Below are positions 25,868 to 33,814 of a stretch of 64,000 bases of DNA, one piece after another. The translations under genes were made by a program, and so were the position numbers. The notes under the pieces are model-generated. The model saw nothing but the letters and a program-made list of their open reading frames with translations. It had not been told where the DNA came from and made no database searches. Location of the stretch: NCBI GenBank assembly GCA_013426015.1, contig CP058998.1, positions 558,001-622,000 of the forward strand, written 5' to 3'. Source of the DNA: Candidatus Fermentimicrarchaeum limneticum (lineage in GTDB: Archaea; Micrarchaeota; Micrarchaeia; Burarchaeales; Fermentimicrarchaeaceae). Each line of letters begins with the position of its first letter. Position 1 is the first letter of the stretch.

Positions 25868-26396
25868 GCTTGAGCCTCTCCTCAATTGATTTCGTTTTGC
25901 CCGCCCTGTCGTGCATGAGGGTCTTCCCAGAATAACTCATCACGGCGCTCTTTGTTGTGCCGGTGAGTGCAATCGCATTGCCAAGCGAGAAGCCCTGCGC
26001 GTACAGGTATGAGGCAATCCTCAGCCTAGCCTTGTTGAAAAGACTCTGGACGTACCTCCTGTCCTCGGTGTCGAAAGCCTTCAGCTCTTCCGTTATGGAG
26101 TTGAGATATATCCTCATGTCGTCGGGCCTGTTCTCCTCAAGGGAAGCAATCGCATTGTGGAGGTTCTCCTCAACCTTCTCTATGAACTCCCTCTTTACCT
26201 TCTTGTACCAGTAGCGCGGCTTCTCCAAAACCTTGACAAGGATGTAGGAGGTGATTGCGATGTCAAGCAGCTCTTTTTCCTCGCCAAGCGCAAACGAGCT
26301 GATGCACCTGTCGCTTATCTTCCTCAGCTCGGAAAGTTCGTTTGTCATCAGGGCGTTGAGCATCTCCTTCAATGCCTCTGTCACAGTGTAGCTCAT
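25845..26396 (-). CDS. Conserved archaeal helical protein, partner of the PIN gene
   Basis: A 183-residue, mostly helical protein. Near the C-terminus is a helix-turn-helix-like segment (GFSLGNAIALTGTTKSAVMS). It resembles uncharacterised euryarchaeal proteins encoded beside PIN-domain genes. The start ATG 26396 is favoured because TATTTAAAT lies about 25-30 bases upstream. The 3' end overlaps the PIN gene by 23 bases, so they are co-translated. Antitoxin-like control of the PIN nuclease is inference. Confidence 0.55.
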   Translation of the reverse strand: MSYTVTEALKEMLNALMTNELSELRKISDRCISSFALGEEKELLDIAITSYILVKVLEKPRYWYKKVKREFIEKVEENLHNAIASLEENRPDDMRIYLNSITEELKAFDTEDRRYVQSLFNKARLRIASYLYAQGFSLGNAIALTGTTKSAVMSYSGKTLMHDRAGKTKSIEERLKHVRDMFR

Positions 26397-26490
26397 GCTT
26401 TCATTTAGGTGGAAGTCATTTAAATATTCCTCCCAGCATAAAACCATCTTCGGTGAATTCGGGAAAATAGGCTTATACCAACCGGTTTTT

Positions 26491-26499
26491 CGATAGAAC
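26491..26499. repeat. Left 9-bp target-site duplication
   Basis: CGATAGAAC lies directly outside the left terminal inverted repeat. The identical 9-mer lies directly outside the right repeat at 33343-33351. Confidence 0.85.
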
Positions 26500-26526
26500 A
26501 GCTTTGCACATAAATTGCCTCGAAAT
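26500..26526 (+). repeat. Left terminal inverted repeat
   Basis: It starts AGCTTTGCACATAAAT and matches the reverse complement of 33316-33342 at 23 of 27 positions. Confidence 0.85.
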
Positions 26527-26585
26527 CACTCCTTGCACATAAATTCGGTCAGTTGCACATAAACTCGTCTGCTTGCACATAAATT
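26504..26585 (+). repeat. Four direct copies of TTGCACATAAA(T/C)T at the left end
   Basis: Copies start at 26504 (within the terminal repeat), 26533, 26553 and 26573, so spacings are 29, 20 and 20 bases. Two related GCACAT words, also 20 bases apart (33271 and 33291), lie near the right end. Regular 20-bp spacing places the sites on one face of the helix, as expected for transposase- or regulator-binding sites. Confidence 0.75.
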
Positions 26586-26599
26586 AAACGAAATAGATT

Positions 26600-26971
26600 C
26601 TAAGGGGGGGTTTGGCAGTATTTTAGTATCCTCTGCCTATCCTCGTTTTCCCTATTACCTTTATAGTATACCTCAATTACACGCACTTTTTTATTAAAAA
26701 CTTGGAAGATAACCCTAAATTTGTCTTTACAGTGTAAAGATTTGCAATGAACTTTCCTTGCTTTGTATACGTTGCCAACAACCTTTCCTAAGCCTGAGAT
26801 TTCAACAAATCCTTGGTATCTATAAAACTCTTTCTCTTCTAACATACCTGGCAACGCTTTTAAAAAACGTTCAAAATCCTCTCCGAAACCTTGAACATGA
26901 ATCTTCTTGAAATCTTTTTCTATTTCATCAACTTGCTTTATTTCAAAAATAGATAGATTAGAATTAGACAT
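26600..26971 (-). CDS. Putative RelE-like toxin of a Panacea pair
   Basis: A 123-residue protein whose second half (KVVGNVYKARKVHCKSLHCK, then FRVIFQVFNKKVRVIEVYYK) has the strand pattern of RelE/HigB-type toxins, ending in a basic helix (ENEDRQRILKYC). It is 12 bases after a Panacea-domain gene, an order typical of Panacea toxin-antitoxin modules, whose toxins are very diverse. The direct toxin family is not certain. Confidence 0.65.
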   Translation of the reverse strand: MSNSNLSIFEIKQVDEIEKDFKKIHVQGFGEDFERFLKALPGMLEEKEFYRYQGFVEISGLGKVVGNVYKARKVHCKSLHCKDKFRVIFQVFNKKVRVIEVYYKGNRENEDRQRILKYCQTPP

Positions 26972-26983
26972 TAGATCACATAG

Positions 26984-27478
26984 TTAATCACTGACGGAAA
27001 AAATTGGATTGCGGTAATGCACTAAATCATAATCAATTATCTCATCGAGCTTGGTCACTTTACATGGCATATCTTGATGCGAATATGCACTTGCTTGTGA
27101 TGCGGTCATCCCAGAAAGTCTCTGTATATTCCTATCAATTTCTTTGATTTCTTCCTTTGCAAGTTTATCTGTTTTGTCATCTCCGTGGTAGCAATATCTA
27201 ATCTGAGTTCCCATTCCATAGTGAAAATGTAATTCTCGGATCATATCCTTTTCTTTTAATCTTTTGATAATTATATCAAATGTGCAAGGAGCTGGTCCAT
27301 GTGTTATACGTCGATATTTGTCTCCAGTTATTGATTTTTCAAAACGTTCATAATAGTCAAAATCTGAAAAATAAAGTACTTTATAAAAGAGAGTTTTCCC
27401 AAAGTTAGGTCTATCCTGCAAATTTTTGATAATATGTAAGTAAACTTGCTCAGCTTTGGAGAGGTTCACCCCTACCAT
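26984..27478 (-). CDS. Panacea-domain (DUF4065, SocA-like) antitoxin
   Basis: A 164-residue protein with the Panacea signature: FGKTLFYKVLYFSDFDYYERF, then SITGDKYRRITHGPAP and an IIKRLKEKDMIRE helix. Panacea proteins neutralise many unrelated toxins and sometimes act with proteases. ATG 27478 is preferred to an upstream GTG at 27532. ATATATATAAG lies about 25-30 bases before it, inside the 3' end of the methyltransferase gene, so the pair has its own promoter. It may serve to keep the element in the genome. Confidence 0.8.
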   Translation of the reverse strand: MVGVNLSKAEQVYLHIIKNLQDRPNFGKTLFYKVLYFSDFDYYERFEKSITGDKYRRITHGPAPCTFDIIIKRLKEKDMIRELHFHYGMGTQIRYCYHGDDKTDKLAKEEIKEIDRNIQRLSGMTASQASAYSHQDMPCKVTKLDEIIDYDLVHYRNPIFSVSD

Positions 27479-27531
27479 GGTCACCACTACTATCTGCACC
27501 AATCTTATATATATACCTATGATGTTACTCA

Positions 27532-28917
27532 CTAATCTACCCTACCATCCAGTAGTTCTTGCACAGTCCTTAGAATTATATCCAGTTCACCAGCATTCTT
27601 TATTCGAGCTACCTCTTCGATAGCACCTTTTCCGAAAGAGAAGGCCACTATATACCCCTTCTTCTTTCCGATACGACGCATTGCTGTTTCAAAATTATCC
27701 ACGACGTTCCGCCCAACATCTGGCGACTGCTTTACTTGTATCGGATAACCACCTAAAACCTGTGGTGTAAAACCATCAATACCCATATCACCAACTTTTC
27801 TTTCGCTGACCTTGCCAAGGAACTTATCTGTAATAACCCAGTTCTGGAATTCAAAAGGAGCAAGTTTTTTGACATAATTTAAATCCACTTCTCCTCGTAT
27901 TATGTGAACACTTACACTAAATTCTTTCCTCAATCGTTTTTGCATCAATTTGCACGCTGTCGGGCTTACGTCTATACCAATCCATTTCCTGCCAAGCTTC
28001 TGGGCGGCTACAATAGTTGTACCGCAACCGCAGAATGGGTCTAAAACCAAGTCTCCTTTATCGCTTGATGTAACTATCATTCTCTCAAGCAAAGCCACTG
28101 GCTTTTGGGTAGGGTAGCCTAATCTCTCATTGGATTGGCTTGAAATAGGCTGAATGTCATCCCAGAGGTTCTGTATTGGTTGACCTTTCAATTCATCAAG
28201 AAAGCGTTTCCTTCTAATACGCCCTTTCTTATTCGCTGGAAACCAGAGCCTTCCTTCCTTATCCCATTGCTCCATCTTTTCCTTTTCAATAGCCCAACCG
28301 TATGCTGGTGGTTTATACCCTTTGTATTCGTAAGTCAAGTTAGGTCTTGGAGAAGGGCTTGCAAGGTTATCAATCTGGAATTTCCTTCCTTCTTTATCAA
28401 TATGCGTGTAGAATTTTTTGACATATTCCTTGTATTCATCATCCGCTTCTGATACCGGTTTAAATTGTGAATTGAACTTGCTGTCTTTTGATTTAGAGTA
28501 GAATAATATGTAATCCGTGCATACGCCAAATTGTTTGCTTTTATGTTGCGTTTCTCCCCTTCCTGTTTTTCTTTTCCAAATTATTTCATTTCTAAAATTA
28601 CTTTCTCCAAATATTTTGTCAAGCAATATTCGTAAATGGGCGGAAGCGTGATAATCACAATGAAGATAGAAAGAACCAGTATTTTTGAGAAGCCTATGAC
28701 ACTCTCGCAATCTGGGTTCCATCCATGCGGTATAGTGTTCAATTCCACCAGCCCAACGGTCTTCAAAAGCTCGTTTTTCAGCTCCATCTTTCCAGATGAT
28801 TTCAAAACGCTTGTTGGTGTAAAAAGGCGGATCTGCATACATCAAATCTACGGACTTATCAGGAAACTTACTCATTATCTCTAAGTTATCCCCTTCGTAG
28901 ATACTGTTTACTTCCAC
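27532..28917 (-). CDS. DNA methyltransferase fused to a restriction-endonuclease-like domain
   Basis: A 461-residue protein. Residues 1-325 are a beta-class amino-methyltransferase: catalytic motif IV ADPPF at residues 28-32 precedes the SAM-binding motif DPFCGCGTT near residue 295. The target-recognition region lies between them. Residues about 345-461 look like an Mrr/PD-(D/E)XK nuclease: GDMGIDGF supplies the Asp and PIQVKQS the Q-x-K, with helices after it. It could therefore modify and cut alone, or act with the divergent D12 methyltransferase. The start is GTG, with GGAGGGTGTGA upstream. Confidence 0.82.
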   Translation of the reverse strand: MEVNSIYEGDNLEIMSKFPDKSVDLMYADPPFYTNKRFEIIWKDGAEKRAFEDRWAGGIEHYTAWMEPRLRECHRLLKNTGSFYLHCDYHASAHLRILLDKIFGESNFRNEIIWKRKTGRGETQHKSKQFGVCTDYILFYSKSKDSKFNSQFKPVSEADDEYKEYVKKFYTHIDKEGRKFQIDNLASPSPRPNLTYEYKGYKPPAYGWAIEKEKMEQWDKEGRLWFPANKKGRIRRKRFLDELKGQPIQNLWDDIQPISSQSNERLGYPTQKPVALLERMIVTSSDKGDLVLDPFCGCGTTIVAAQKLGRKWIGIDVSPTACKLMQKRLRKEFSVSVHIIRGEVDLNYVKKLAPFEFQNWVITDKFLGKVSERKVGDMGIDGFTPQVLGGYPIQVKQSPDVGRNVVDNFETAMRRIGKKKGYIVAFSFGKGAIEEVARIKNAGELDIILRTVQELLDGRVD

Positions 28918-29022
28918 ACTTCACACCCTCCTATTCCTTTAGGGTTACAGCTATTTTTATACCTTAGCCTATCGTCCAAAAAGGAAGCTTTAAATATATG
29001 GATCCAAAAAAGTATAACACAT

Positions 29023-30198
29023 ATGGATCCATCAGCTCACGTGCCTCAAATTATAAGATACATGGGTAGCAAAAGGAATATCGTAGCTAAAATCCTGCCG
29101 ATTATAGAAAAAAATTTAGATGACCAAAGGATGTTTTGCGATTTATTTGCAGGAACTAACGCAATTAGCTATGCAGTTAAAACCTCAAAAAATGTGGGCA
29201 TTATAACAAATGATATTCAATCGTATAGCGTTGCAATATCCAAAGCTCTGATAGAGAATAACCGAATATCTACCATCCCCATCGAAGAAGCCAAAGAGGA
29301 TTTAATAGAAAATTTTGAAGAAAATAAAGAATTTATAGAGGACAAGTGGGATAACACCTTTATCGCACATCATCAGTATAGAACTAAAGTTTTAAACGAT
29401 AAACCAACTTCATTTGAAGATTTTATAAAGACAAGTGTCTCTAAACTGCCATTCTGCTTGTTCACATTTTATTTCAGTAATGTTTACTTCTCATCGGAAC
29501 AATGCAAAGAGATAGATTCCCTCAGATTTGCGATTGAGAACGTTAATGACAAGACAAAGAAAAATATGTACTTAACATGTTTGCTTTATGCCATTAGTTA
29601 TGGTAGCTCTACATATGGGCACTTCGCACAACCTCGGTCAGTAAGCCAAGAAGTCAAGAAAATAAGAAAAAGGTCCGTCGTAGATTTGTTTTTTAAAAAA
29701 TTGAAAAACTTGGAAGTAGTGGATAATAAAAAAGAAAATTACTGTTTTAACAAGGATTATAAAGACCTATTTTTAGATAAAAAATTCCGAAGTCTTGACA
29801 CGGGGTTCATCTACATGGATCCCCCTTATAGTACGGCTAACTTCTCAAGATTTTACCATGTATTAGAAACTGCTGTGAGATACGATTATCCCCATTCACA
29901 ATTTAAAGGGCGCTATAGGGAAGATAGATTCAAGTCAGATTTCTGCAAGAGAACAAAAGTTAAAAACGAATTTAGAAATGTTGTGCAGTTTGCACACGAA
30001 AATGATGCAATGCTATTAATCAGCTATCTTAATTCCCATCTCGGGCTGCTCCCAAAGAAGATGATATTAAAACTTTGCAGGGAAATTTATGGAAGAGCCA
30101 AGGTAGTAGCGTTTCCTGATATCCGCCATCAACACTCGACAATGGGAAACCTGAGCAAAAATAACGTCAAAGAGATCCTCATCTTGTGTAAGCAGTAA
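29023..30198 (+). CDS. D12-class (Dam-type) adenine-N6 DNA methyltransferase
   Basis: A 391-residue alpha-class methyltransferase. IRYMGSKRNIVAKILPIIE is the D12 N-terminal SAM region, CDLFAGTNAISYAV is motif I, and IYMDPPYSTANFSRFYHVL is the catalytic motif IV. It is longer than E. coli Dam, with a helical insert around residues 90-240. It is divergent from the methyltransferase-nuclease gene. TTTAAATATATGG lies about 30 bases upstream. The recognition sequence is not readable. Confidence 0.87.
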   Translation: MDPSAHVPQIIRYMGSKRNIVAKILPIIEKNLDDQRMFCDLFAGTNAISYAVKTSKNVGIITNDIQSYSVAISKALIENNRISTIPIEEAKEDLIENFEENKEFIEDKWDNTFIAHHQYRTKVLNDKPTSFEDFIKTSVSKLPFCLFTFYFSNVYFSSEQCKEIDSLRFAIENVNDKTKKNMYLTCLLYAISYGSSTYGHFAQPRSVSQEVKKIRKRSVVDLFFKKLKNLEVVDNKKENYCFNKDYKDLFLDKKFRSLDTGFIYMDPPYSTANFSRFYHVLETAVRYDYPHSQFKGRYREDRFKSDFCKRTKVKNEFRNVVQFAHENDAMLLISYLNSHLGLLPKKMILKLCREIYGRAKVVAFPDIRHQHSTMGNLSKNNVKEILILCKQ

Positions 30199-30252
30199 CG
30201 ATTATAAACTTGAAGATTGCATATACATATTCTTTCGAATCACCTCCCCCTA

Positions 30253-30317
30253 CCTGCGGAATCTGGGGACTGGCCAGGTACGGGGAGCCTTTTGAGACTA
30301 CTTCCATACTCCGCAGG
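30253..30317. other. Long inverted repeat in the 457-bp gap inside the element
   Basis: CCTGCGGA (30253-30260) pairs with TCCGCAGG (30310-30317), followed by a second stem around 30319-30338 (CCGCCCCTCTTCGAGGCGG). A perfect 11-bp stem with a one-base centre, GCACAAAAATT/AATTTTTGTGC, lies at 30432-30454. This gap (30199-30655) is GC-richer than the genes around it and holds no convincing coding frame. It could encode a structured RNA or be remnant sequence. Confidence 0.4.
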
Positions 30318-30361
30318 CTCCGCCCCTCTTCGAGGCGGACTTTCAGGGTGTATTATTATTA

Positions 30362-30393
30362 TGATCGGTGGTTTAAATACTTATGCCCGATCA
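30362..30393. promoter_or_regulatory. Inverted repeat bracketing a TATA box
   Basis: TGATCGG (30362-30368) and CCGATCA (30387-30393) flank GTTTAAATAC at 30371-30380. The symmetrical arms, each containing GATC, around a TATA box look like an operator. What it would transcribe to the right is unclear, because the GHKL gene starts at 30656 behind another TATA box. Confidence 0.4.
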
Positions 30394-30583
30394 AAGCCTA
30401 CAAAGCCTGCTATCTTCGTCAAATGGCGATCGCACAAAAATTCAATTTTTGTGCACAAACCTTAGGGCAAATGGGTATCTCTTTATCCGCACGGTGCGTG
30501 CCAGTCCCGGCAATTTCATAACTGTGCTTGGATTTGTGATTGCTAAATAACTCGCTCCGTAGCCAACTTCTTGAGCATATAAA

Positions 30584-30610
30584 CTAATTAAACAAAATCA
30601 GTTTAATTAG
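30584..30610. promoter_or_regulatory. 10-bp perfect inverted repeat upstream of the GHKL gene
   Basis: CTAATTAAAC and GTTTAATTAG are separated by seven bases, immediately upstream of GATATATTTAAATAC (30621-30635), the likely promoter of the GHKL ATPase gene. It fits a dimeric regulator site. Confidence 0.5.
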
Positions 30611-30655
30611 CTTTCGATCAGATATATTTAAATACTTCATGTTCTAAATCTTGTT

Positions 30656-32086
30656 ATGACTGAACAGAGGACTATTGATATAACACCACACACCTCGCTT
30701 ATGAGAAAATTGAGCTTTGTCAACTTTAAGTTTCCTGATGCTTTGGCTGAATTTGTTGATAATAGCATTGATGCTCGAGTAGGGAATAAACCGATTGTCA
30801 TCTCTTTAGAACTCAGTAAAGATTCAATTAAAATTCAAGATGATGGAAAAGGCATGAATGAAGAAGAAGCCATAAGTTCTTTAAGATTGGCGGATACTAC
30901 AAAAGAAGGGACAACGAATTTAGGGCAATTCGGCTTGGGTCTAAAAACTGGTGCACTAACATTGGGTAAAAAATTTACAGTGATAACCACCCAAGAAAAA
31001 TTAAAAAATCAATTTAGAATAGATTTTGATGAAGATAAATTTGAGAAAGAGGGGGATTGGAGAAAACACAGTTTTTTTATAGAGCCTAAAACTTTCGACC
31101 ATGGTACGGTAGTAACAATTACAGACTTAAAATTCAATGTTTATAGGGTTAAAATAGACCGACTCGTCGAGGACTTCTCTATACGTTTTGGGCCATTCCT
31201 AAAATTAGAAAATAATCAAGTTAAAATCATCATAAATAATAAAACTTTGGAATACAAGGAAAGAGAATTTCTATACACACAAAACTCGATTGTTTCTTTC
31301 TCAGTAAATAATAAAAGAGTAAATGGGTGGTTTAACTTTCTGAAAAAAAGAGCGGTTAAAAGTAGTTTATATGGTTTCCATTTATTTAAGAACAATCGTT
31401 TGATAAAAGCATTTGCAAAGGAAGAGTTGGGACTATACGCCCACCCTGAAAAAGCACAGATTTACGGAGAGCTTTATTTAGATGATTTTCCAACAACACA
31501 TAATAAAAAAGAATTTTTAATGGACACCCCAGATTGGGAAAAGCTAATAGAAAAACTGGGGGAAATCATAGCAGAACCTATAAGCAAACATATGGACTTT
31601 GTCATAGGTCAGAGAAAAAGGAAAAAAATTGTAAAGGCAGTAACTAAGCTTGCAGATTATTTCTCAAATCTCAACATAGAGGCCATAAAGTCAGAATTTG
31701 AAGATGAGGAATTAAAGAAGATAGAAATTAAACCCGTAAATTTTGAGAAGATTCATATCGATGGTGAATGGTATAGTTTTGAACCAAGATTATTGAGACT
31801 GGGGGAACGTCGCAATTTATTTAGTACGGACATAGAGAATAACAACATCAAAATTGAAGTAAATATTGATTTTCCTCTATTCAAGATTAAAGACAATTAT
31901 GAAGTTTTCGAGACTTTAGTTATATTTACTGTTTCTGAAGCTTTAGCAAAGATAATGATACAAAAAAGAAAAGAGGATATAGACTCATTTTTTAAACAGA
32001 GAGATCTCATCTTAAATTCATTGGTTCGAAGACCTAAAAGCAAAGAAGAGAAAAGGGAGATAAACAGTTTATTGCGGTATAGTTAG
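30656..32086 (+). CDS. MORC/Hsp90-like GHKL ATPase
   Basis: A 476-residue ATPase. The N-box is EFVDNSIDA (E32, N36), the G1 box QDDGKGM (residues 61-67) and the G2 box GQFGLGLKTGAL (90-101). These are followed by an S5/transducer-like domain to about residue 300 and an unassigned C-terminal region. This is the MORC/MutL-like group. Prokaryotic MORC relatives have been noted beside restriction-modification genes, which fits the two methyltransferases here. It may sense or remodel DNA as part of the defence unit. Its stop overlaps that of a convergent small gene. Confidence 0.85.
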   Translation: MTEQRTIDITPHTSLMRKLSFVNFKFPDALAEFVDNSIDARVGNKPIVISLELSKDSIKIQDDGKGMNEEEAISSLRLADTTKEGTTNLGQFGLGLKTGALTLGKKFTVITTQEKLKNQFRIDFDEDKFEKEGDWRKHSFFIEPKTFDHGTVVTITDLKFNVYRVKIDRLVEDFSIRFGPFLKLENNQVKIIINNKTLEYKEREFLYTQNSIVSFSVNNKRVNGWFNFLKKRAVKSSLYGFHLFKNNRLIKAFAKEELGLYAHPEKAQIYGELYLDDFPTTHNKKEFLMDTPDWEKLIEKLGEIIAEPISKHMDFVIGQRKRKKIVKAVTKLADYFSNLNIEAIKSEFEDEELKKIEIKPVNFEKIHIDGEWYSFEPRLLRLGERRNLFSTDIENNNIKIEVNIDFPLFKIKDNYEVFETLVIFTVSEALAKIMIQKRKEDIDSFFKQRDLILNSLVRRPKSKEEKREINSLLRYS

Positions 32087-32244
32087 CCTTTCTTTTTTTG
32101 GGCTTTAAGGAACTTTGTTAGAACATCATAAACTTCATTAACAGTAGTATTGTACACCGTAAAACTCTTACTTTCAGGAGTACGCCTGTTCCTTATGGTC
32201 ACCATAATGCTGTCAGGTTTCTCAGACTCTATCATATCAAACAT
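32083..32244 (-). CDS. Small protein (53 aa) divergent from the transposase
   Basis: A 53-codon frame encodes SIMVTIRNRRTPESKSFTVY then a C-terminal helix (VNEVYDVLTKFLKAQKKKG). It resembles the compact beta-alpha small proteins often seen in archaeal mobile elements. It shares the palindromic TTTAAA-centred promoter with the transposase gene on the other strand. The stop overlaps that of the GHKL gene. Start codon 32244 or 32235. It could regulate the transposase; function is unknown. Confidence 0.55.
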   Translation of the reverse strand: MFDMIESEKPDSIMVTIRNRRTPESKSFTVYNTTVNEVYDVLTKFLKAQKKKG

Positions 32245-32256
32245 TTAGAGTACAAA

Positions 32257-32268
32257 TGTTTAAATACT
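32257..32268. promoter_or_regulatory. Shared, near-symmetrical TATA box
   Basis: ATGTTTAAATAC lies about 25-30 bases before the transposase ATG (32290), so that message is likely leaderless. Read on the other strand, GTATTTAAAC serves the 53-aa gene. Confidence 0.5.
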
Positions 32269-32289
32269 TATCATTACCATAATAATTAT

Positions 32290-33321
32290 ATGAAATTGGT
32301 AACAAAAGAGGTAGCCGAGAGAGATAAGAATGTATACCCGCAAAACTGGCCCGCTTATAATGCCGCTCAAGTAGAGGAGAAGCTCCAGTTCCTTGGTATC
32401 CTAAGCGAGCTTTGCTCGTATATCCCAGACTATCCCAACGGCGGACCAGGCAGACCGAGGATGCGCCTGGGGGAGATGACCTTCTGTGTAGTCTCAAAGG
32501 TCTACGAGAGGCTCTCGTCCAGAAGGGTCTCATCTGATCTGGAGATAGCGAAGGATAGTGGCTACATCGAGAAGGTTCCGCACTTCAACACTACCTTAAA
32601 GTACTTCAATGAGCCCACATTAACCCCACTACTCACGCAGTTAATCCAGCTTTCGGCAAGCCCGCTCAAAGACTTTGAAACAACCTTCGCAGTTGATGCA
32701 AGCGGATTGAGTTCGGCTTTCTATTCACGTTGGCTTGATTATCGTCTTAAAGGAGACAAATTGGTGAAGGGCTGGCTGAAGGTTCATGTCATATGCGGAG
32801 TCAAGAGCCACATAGTTACACATATCGTTGTGACAGACGGGGTAAAGCACGACTGCCCACAGTTCACCGAGCTTGTGAGGGAAACAGCAAAGAACTTCAA
32901 GATTGATGCGGTATGCGGAGACCTCGGCTACTCAAGCAGGGCCAATGTGCAACTCGTGTGGGATCTCGGAGGTGCTCCTCTCATACCATTCAAATATACT
33001 GCCAACGGAAAGTCAAGCGGAAGCTCTGCTTGGCGGAAAATGTACATATGGTTCCACATGAATGGAGAGGAGTTCTACAAGTATTACCACCAGAGGAGCA
33101 ATGTTGAAAGCACCTTCAGCATGCTTAAAAGGAAGTTCAGCACGAGGCTGATGCTCAAGAACGAACTGGGGCAGACGAATGAGGCTCTTGCTATGGTGCT
33201 CTGCCATAACATAGTCTGCCTCATTCACGAGATGCACGAACTTGGCTTGGATGTCGAGTTCCAGAAGTCTGCACATTTATTCCCGAACCTGCACATAAAA
33301 CCCGATGCATCTATAATTTAG
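32290..33321 (+). CDS. DDE transposase, IS4/IS5-like
   Basis: A 343-residue transposase. The first Asp is in TFAVDASGLSS, the second in AVCGDLGYSS, and the Glu in YHQRSNVESTFSMLK, which fits the IS4-type Y-2-R-3-E-6-K signature exactly. The N-terminal third is a likely DNA-binding region (SSRRVSSDLEIAKDSGYIEK). The stop codon at 33319 lies inside the right terminal inverted repeat. It appears intact. A 9-bp target duplication is compatible with IS4/IS5 relatives. Its codon use and GC content look more host-like than the other cargo. Confidence 0.88.
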   Translation: MKLVTKEVAERDKNVYPQNWPAYNAAQVEEKLQFLGILSELCSYIPDYPNGGPGRPRMRLGEMTFCVVSKVYERLSSRRVSSDLEIAKDSGYIEKVPHFNTTLKYFNEPTLTPLLTQLIQLSASPLKDFETTFAVDASGLSSAFYSRWLDYRLKGDKLVKGWLKVHVICGVKSHIVTHIVVTDGVKHDCPQFTELVRETAKNFKIDAVCGDLGYSSRANVQLVWDLGGAPLIPFKYTANGKSSGSSAWRKMYIWFHMNGEEFYKYYHQRSNVESTFSMLKRKFSTRLMLKNELGQTNEALAMVLCHNIVCLIHEMHELGLDVEFQKSAHLFPNLHIKPDASII

Positions 33322-33342
33322 AGGGGATTTGTGTGCAAAGCT
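33316..33342 (-). repeat. Right terminal inverted repeat
   Basis: On the minus strand it starts AGCTTTGCACACAAAT and matches the left end (26500-26526) at 23 of 27 positions. Confidence 0.85.
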
Positions 33343-33351
33343 CGATAGAAC
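33343..33351. repeat. Right 9-bp target-site duplication
   Basis: CGATAGAAC is an exact copy of 26491-26499 and abuts the right terminal repeat. The TATA box of the following gene (TTTATATACC, 33358-33367) starts only seven bases later, so the insertion just missed it. Confidence 0.85.
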
Positions 33352-33379
33352 GATATGTTTATATACCCCTTTCCTTCTA

Positions 33380-33431
33380 ATCATGACACAGTCATGATTT
33401 TAACCAGGTTTAGTCATGACGCTCTCATGAG
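33380..33431. promoter_or_regulatory. Four phased TCATGA operator sites
   Basis: ATCATGAC-aca-GTCATGAT (33380-33398) is a perfect inverted repeat. GTCATGAC-gct-CTCATGAG (33413-33431) is a second pair. TCATGA starts at 33381, 33392, 33414 and 33425, spacings of 11, 22 and 11. The array covers the predicted transcription start (TATA at 33358) and ends 12 bases before the HTH gene, so autoregulation is likely. Confidence 0.65.
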
Positions 33432-33442
33432 GGAGTGATGGA

Positions 33443-33814
33443 ATGCCCGAAGTACAAGAAAAGGAGCTTGAGAAAAGGAGCGTGGAGACAACCACAATAC
33501 TGACCAAGGTGAAGGAAACAACGGAGATGGAGCTACTGAGGGCGATTGTCGGGAAGCTGGATGCGATTGAGAAGAGGATTTCGGAAATTGAGAGGGAGAT
33601 TGGTAAAGAAGCTGCCGAGGAAATCCTGGGTGATATTGACGAGAAGATAATTGAGTTCGTGAAGAAGAACGGAAAGGTCTGCGCTGACGACTTGCAAAAG
33701 GAGTTCAACTACAAGGGAAAGAACGCTGCAAGCGCGAGACTGAATAAATTGTATTCCCAGGGACTGCTGGATAAGAGGCAGGCTGGGAGGAGGGTTTATT
33801 ACTTCGCGAAGTGA
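33443..33814 (+). CDS. Winged-helix protein with N-terminal coiled coil
   Basis: A 123-residue protein. Residues 1-60 form a charged coiled coil (IVGKLDAIEKRISEIEREIG). Residues 65-123 form a winged helix (VKKNGKVCADDLQKEFNYKG, then ARLNKLYSQGLLDKRQAGRR). GAGGGAGTGATGG lies before the ATG. The TCATGA array in its promoter suggests it binds its own control region as a dimer or tetramer. The target genes are unknown. Confidence 0.7.
   Translation: MPEVQEKELEKRSVETTTILTKVKETTEMELLRAIVGKLDAIEKRISEIEREIGKEAAEEILGDIDEKIIEFVKKNGKVCADDLQKEFNYKGKNAASARLNKLYSQGLLDKRQAGRRVYYFAK

Follow-up and report, generated by a model that had tools for sequence, protein, structure and literature searches.

We analysed a window of 64,000 nucleotides from the archaeon Candidatus Fermentimicrarchaeum limneticum (assembly GCA_013426015.1, contig CP058998.1; C1:558001-622000 of a 1.2-Mb genome) and found that positions 26500-33342 form a transposon of the IS5-superfamily type, as defined by its DDE domain, inverted repeats, target duplication and empty site. 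It is highly probable that this segment of 6,843 bp is one cargo-carrying transposition unit and that it belongs to a family whose members pick up immune genes. A preliminary description of the window had pointed to three adjacent genes at 27532-32086, encoding a methyltransferase-nuclease fusion, a D12 methyltransferase and a MORC-like ATPase, as a candidate new defence module. The three open reading frames (ORFs) are indeed intact at these positions and their link to restriction-modification (RM) was right, as judged by Pfam and Foldseek; the unit that contains them extends beyond the noted genes on both sides.

Ends, target duplication and empty site

A repeat search covering window positions 26300-33600 revealed terminal inverted repeats with arms of 27 nt that are 85% complementary and enclose the cargo exactly. 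An exact 9-bp duplication, CGATAGAAC, abuts both outer ends, the chance of such a match at one given pair being ~4e-6. In two genomes of the same genus the flanks are joined without the transposon, and the empty site lacks the whole 6.8 kb, i.e. all five non-transposase genes; at L149 it holds exactly one CGATAGAAC. The GC content is 31-46% within the transposon as compared with ~50% outside. The transposase ORF is intact, adjoins the right end and matches Pfam DDE_Tnp_1 (1.3e-21), the best NCBIfam model being IS5_2 (1.5e-31, under its curated cut-off). Because of this structure and the empty site, we infer that the transposon moved as one unit, and the iterated TTGCACATAAA repeats at its left end are probably binding sites of the transposase. 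The features of the unit are as follows.

26491..26499, no strand: left copy of the 9-bp target-site duplication, CGATAGAAC (sequence)
26500..26526, plus strand: left terminal inverted repeat (repeat search; first 16 bases 15/16)
26504..26585, plus strand: four iterated TTGCACATAAA repeats at ~20 bp spacing (repeat family D2)
26600..26971, minus strand: 123-aa ORF, probable RelE-like toxin (position and sequence appearance only)
26984..27532, minus strand: SocA/Panacea-type antitoxin (Pfam SocA_Panacea, 3.9e-15, above its cut-off; the start may lie further downstream)
27532..28917, minus strand: fusion of a beta-class methyltransferase with a C-terminal Mrr-like PD-(D/E)xK domain (Pfam, alignments, AlphaFold, Foldseek)
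29023..30198, plus strand: D12-class (alpha) N6-adenine methyltransferase (Pfam)
30656..32086, plus strand: MORC-family GHKL ATPase with S5 domain and uncharacterised C-terminal region (Pfam, NCBIfam)
32290..33321, plus strand: IS5-type DDE transposase, intact (Pfam, NCBIfam)
33270..33299, minus strand: right-end subterminal repeats, two TGCACAT-type copies (repeat family D1, end alignment)
33316..33342, minus strand: right terminal inverted repeat (repeat search)
33343..33351, no strand: right copy of the 9-bp target-site duplication, CGATAGAAC (sequence)

A small minus-strand ORF of ~53 aa (window 32083-32244) lies between the MORC and transposase genes.

Related elements in the phylum

The survey was confined to one phylum, and relatives of the transposase were present in 90 of its 301 genomes. 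Around the strongest relatives we took 56 loci (L176 and L207 being the same place) and scanned them blindly for inverted ends bordered by an exact 9-bp duplication, using reversed and complemented ends as two controls; an earlier scan that allowed short duplications gave noise in many loci, and the exact scan with controls was used instead. It returned 13 pairs, all with ends starting [AGT]GC[TC]TTG, and zero in both control modes. A motif-based scan added L178, which has an exact duplication and is the 14th such locus besides the window, as well as L173, from the genus of the window, where the contig stops at the right end and no duplication is readable. It also returned L207, with ends matching at 10/16 and a duplication at 6/9, the boundaries of which are candidates only. 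We thus worked with 16 bounded elements, i.e. 15 with exact duplications (window included) and L173. They measure 2.6-14.8 kb, and no bare insertion sequence (IS) was found among them. Viral contigs yielded no match to the transposase, and on plasmids its matches were only remote IS5 relatives at 25-31% identity.

The end motif differs among elements (TTGCACATAA, TTGCTAATAA, TTGTATAAAA, TTGTGCATAA), and most of them repeat their own motif internally, at left offsets 22 and 42 and, on the right, in inverted orientation near 34-54. Across 17 elements, these subterminal copies track the motif of their own element, with 42 matches as against 14 expected from the motifs of the others, and such co-variation resembles that of transposase-binding sites, which may co-evolve with the transposase.

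Two smaller insertions elsewhere in the window genome (G000) have ends of the same kind. One (L256, C1:141704-141901) is a 198-bp insertion resembling a miniature inverted-repeat transposable element, with an exact 9-bp duplication, ACTCCCGCT, and an interior that matches parts of TnpB-bearing elements. The other (L259, C1:1093111-1094250) spans 1,140 bp, with ends matching at 13/16 and an 8/9 duplication, and its sole gene encodes a Cas12f/TnpB-type TNB domain (PF07282, 1e-22); it is apparently a TnpB-like gene within DDE-type inverted repeats.

Cargo, as assigned with Pfam and PADLOC, includes RM or Druantia/HerA-NurA-like genes in nine of the 16 bounded elements, window included.

L173: ParB-like protein, D12, beta methyltransferase, MvaI/BcnI nuclease
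L175: HsdM-like protein, HsdS
L185: Eco57I-type methyltransferase, type II nuclease-like protein
L215: N6_Mtase and specificity domain (Methylase_S) in one chain
L223: D12, HNH protein
L235: N6_Mtase, type I specificity-like protein
L178: Dcm, Vsr
L220: NurA, HerA, DruA

At the related locus L207, Dcm, Vsr, a GHKL ATPase and the transposase are found. Two of the bounded elements each encode a ParB-like protein beside methyltransferase genes (L173:1739-2761 and L178:11424-12413), and the two proteins are similar.

A count of restriction-type genes inside the elements versus their flanks is circular, the search seeds having been drawn from those elements, and only a distance control was used, on the 41 loci that the blind scan left unmapped. 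In these, 17 matches (one of them a seed matching itself) lie 0-4 kb upstream of the transposase and eight lie at most 1.4 kb downstream, and a restriction-type gene is present within these distances in 21 of the 41 loci. None was found 4-12 kb upstream in the 184 kb searched (binomial p ~6e-7 for the comparison of the two upstream intervals).

Cargo genes of the window

The fusion gene is intact, lies on the minus strand and encodes 461 aa. Residues 23-326 match Pfam N6_N4_Mtase (5e-50), and the motif order, with ADPPF (28-32) ahead of DPFCGCGTT (293-301), is that of the beta class; residues 373-455 match Mrr_cat (4.4e-4; 20.8 bits with a cut-off of 21). Here Pfam and alignment bear out the preliminary description, which had read an amino-methyltransferase order followed by an Mrr-like D...QxK domain. 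Homologues are found in six genomes, at 41-79% identity, and in ~83 viral contigs. In an alignment with six homologues in this identity range, D381...Q394-x-K396 is invariant, and the region between the methyltransferase motifs, which is probably the target-recognising part, varies in length and sequence.

Structure prediction of the C-terminal domain had been proposed as a check. In the AlphaFold models the confidence (pLDDT) is 81 for the whole fusion and 88 when the C-terminal domain is modelled by itself. Foldseek placed the methyltransferase half close to EcoP15I Mod, M.BceJIV, CcrM and RsrI, and a search with the whole chain recovered mainly methyltransferases; with the C-terminal domain it returned weak matches to the RPB5 jaw, which we take to be a restriction-endonuclease-like fold, EcoT38I, FokI and BspD6I, the best E value being 0.003. 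A sequence search of this domain against the PDB was uninformative. Taken together, Pfam, AlphaFold and Foldseek moderately support a nuclease fold at the C-terminus, and the fusion is a putative single-polypeptide RM enzyme. In combining a methyltransferase and a nuclease domain in one chain it resembles type IIG enzymes. The classical members of that type, however, have an N-terminal nuclease and a gamma-class methyltransferase, whereas in the fusion the methyltransferase is of the beta class, motif IV preceding motif I, and the Mrr-like domain is at the C-terminus.

Transcription diverges between the fusion gene and the D12 gene; the fusion gene heads a minus-strand run in which it is followed by the Panacea antitoxin gene and then the RelE-like ORF. 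The D12 gene is intact, and its product (Pfam MethyltransfD12, 8e-25) shares ~30% identity, along 98% of its length, with the methyltransferases of BglII/BstYI-type systems. Its plasmid relatives adjoin differing nucleases (BglII/BstYI, LlaJI and phospholipase D type), and among 147 related genomes only one weak relative was found. Two copies of ATGGATCC, 25 bp apart (window 28985-29031), stand just ahead of the D12 gene; BglII/BstYI-type sites contain GATC, and the copies could be a self-regulating target site. The preliminary description had also put the two enzymes in different classes of methylation. This applies to the fold, which occurs in two permutations, and less to the product, since both enzymes carry DPP[FY] and presumably both make N6-methyladenine.

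The MORC-like nature of the ATPase and its intact N, G1 and G2 boxes, both previously noted, were confirmed: HATPase_c_3 (4.5e-23) and Morc6_S5 (5.5e-7) score above their Pfam cut-offs, the boxes are conserved in the alignment, and the MORC signature GhXhhpXXRhl (PMC2292703) is found as GFHLFKNNRLI. With the prokaryotic MORC family (Iyer et al. 2008, PMC2292703) the protein thus shares the GHKL and S5 domains, the signature and methyltransferase neighbours; it differs in that the window gene adjoins neither a helicase nor a Vsr gene. No superfamily II helicase was found within the window transposon. Such a helicase neighbours ~70% of MORC cases and is not obligatory, MORC genes with DNA methylases or restriction endonucleases and no helicase being a minority arrangement (PMC2292703). 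Against NCBIfam the ATPase matched BbrUII/HgiDII (3.6e-12), far under the cut-off. Membership of the MZA systems was rejected: the MzaB match (9.2e-16) reached 57 bits with a cut-off of 850, and the transposon holds no other Mza-like gene.

In the genomes searched, the ATPase has a single full-length homologue (34% identity, L058). An adjoining ORF (L058:2-469) resembles a DpnII-like nuclease (1e-4, just under the cut-off), and the two could be an ATPase-nuclease pair. Other GHKL proteins that were found are distant and located in MZA-like or Dcm/Vsr loci, and no relatives of the window ATPase were found in the viral contig scan or in the phage collection. One match in the scan of genome contigs (L054) was false, being a histidine-kinase-like ORF.

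The SocA/Panacea antitoxin and its neighbour recall the PanAT toxin-antitoxin (TA) systems, in which such an antitoxin likewise adjoins a small toxin-like ORF (PMC8832971). They differ from these in being encoded within an RM-bearing transposon and in the toxin ORF, for which no Pfam, PADLOC or NCBIfam match was found.

Outside these subjects, the window genome matches the archaeal small-subunit rRNA model at full length; as this model also responds to bacterial sequences, assignment to the archaea depends in part on the genes present. The match in G000 (L247, C1:778250-780267) measures 2,018 bp as compared with a model of 1,478 positions, so that the gene probably contains an insertion or intron.

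Discussion

We propose that the DDE transposase of the window acts on GGCTTTG-like terminal inverted repeats and iterated subterminal repeats and would make a 9-bp duplication on insertion, carrying on the minus strand a putative single-polypeptide RM enzyme and a Panacea/RelE-like TA pair, and on the plus strand a D12 methyltransferase and a MORC-family ATPase. The gene families suggest that this cargo has a role in defence. The methyltransferases would mark host DNA, and the Mrr-like domain, possibly also the MORC ATPase together with a nuclease, would attack DNA that is unmarked; restriction and TA genes may equally, or in addition, impose a cost on losing the transposon. Related transposons in the phylum would repeatedly acquire differing immune genes. 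The partner of the MORC ATPase may be the D12 methyltransferase or the fusion nuclease, or neither of them.

Several observations weigh against this proposal. Seven of the 16 bounded elements (L179, L180, L209, L210, L214, L229 and L236) have no clear defence assignment, and for ~40 loci the ends were not located. The window genome holds a single copy of the transposase, with no recent movement visible there. For the fusion, the Mrr_cat score lies 0.2 bit under the Pfam cut-off and the C-terminal domain gives weak hits in Foldseek. More generally, the activity of every part is predicted from sequence.

Adjacency of the three genes within the window is what had suggested a dedicated defence complex, in which the two methyltransferases mark self and the MORC protein licenses the Mrr-like nuclease; the described minority of MORC genes that lack a helicase and stand with methylases or restriction endonucleases would fit such a complex, as would the GHKL, Dcm and Vsr genes that adjoin the same transposase family at L207. 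We nevertheless consider it very improbable. The proposal of a new three-gene module fails the linkage test across the genomes and viral contigs searched: no D12 or MORC gene was found near the fusion homologues in the six genomes and ~83 viral contigs, no methyltransferase was found beside the full-length MORC homologue at L058, and homologues of each gene keep quite different partners. Within the window, moreover, the genes lie on both strands, and the MORC gene is preceded by a 457-bp gap and a TATA-like box. The genes are tied together by the transposon and not by a conserved module. That a restriction island was already in place and was then hit by an ordinary IS5-type element, the far left repeat being a coincidence or a remnant copy, is scarcely credible: restriction islands are generally known to gather insertion sequences frequently, but the exact 9-bp duplication sits at the outer ends, the empty site lacks the entire 6.8 kb, and the same arrangement recurs at 14 other loci and in none of the controls.

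Two further alternatives concern what the cargo does. The RM and TA genes could mainly serve the transposon itself, acting as addiction modules that are lethal to cells from which it is lost and that bring little benefit against phages. RM and TA systems have been reviewed as stabilizing mobile elements (PMC3874152), PanAT pairs have been noted near transposases, with a like role suggested for them (PMC8832971), and the window transposon contains a Panacea antitoxin next to a RelE-like ORF; some related elements, however, carry Druantia-like or HerA/NurA genes and no obvious TA pair, and an addiction role does not exclude defence. We regard this as possible, if unlikely. It is doubtful, too, that the fusion is a solitary regulatory methyltransferase, with an Mrr-like domain that reads methylation or binds DNA and does not cut. 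Mrr-type domains can sense modified DNA, and relatives of the fusion with no obvious partners are widespread in viral contigs, but the D...QxK residues are retained in homologues at 41-79% identity whereas the middle part varies.

The transposon family shares an IS5-type DDE transposase with the IS903-like group of the IS5 superfamily, and IS903 itself makes a 9-bp target duplication and has GGCTTTGTTGA-like ends, as in the window family. Unlike that group, the family comprises elements of 2.6-14.8 kb with cargo and about three iterated repeats at the ends, and no bare IS was found. In general, RM units with inverted repeats and short duplications, and IS with passenger genes, are known: transporter IS (tIS; PMC9330008) likewise use an IS-type transposase to move passenger genes that lie between the ends, and RM units whose inverted repeats are imperfect and whose target duplications are short are described by Furuta et al. 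(2010), as cited in PMC3874152. What sets the present family apart from both is one transposase lineage, spread across an archaeal phylum, that time and again carries unrelated RM types, Druantia-like genes and a TA pair. A survey of Thaumarchaeota also reported archaeal mobile elements with RM genes; the IS-like transposons there typically have one or two genes, and RM genes are shown in larger integrated elements (PMC6563490). Our literature search, which most subscription papers lay outside, yielded no report of RM cargo on IS5-type elements in such archaea, and the transposon lineage is likely, though not certain, to be new.

For the interpretation of gene neighbourhoods, the window corrects a false lead, in that sharing a transposon does not imply a joint function. 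The end signature allows cargo of uncharacterised function to be extracted as candidate defence genes, a clear defence match being absent from seven of the 16 bounded elements. L179:7839-8519 and L229:2993-3697 encode a common protein of 226-234 aa that belongs to no assigned family and has a similar N-terminal part, and this protein is a candidate for new defence cargo.

On balance, we lean towards the view that a dedicated lineage of archaeal DDE transposons, marked by its co-varying iterated ends and 9-bp target duplication, is an all-purpose carrier of innate immune genes across this phylum of tiny-genome archaea, its load comprising several RM types, MORC/GHKL ATPases, Druantia- and HerA/NurA-type genes and TA pairs. 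Such transposons would offer a specific means by which restriction systems came to be spread so patchily among small archaeal genomes.

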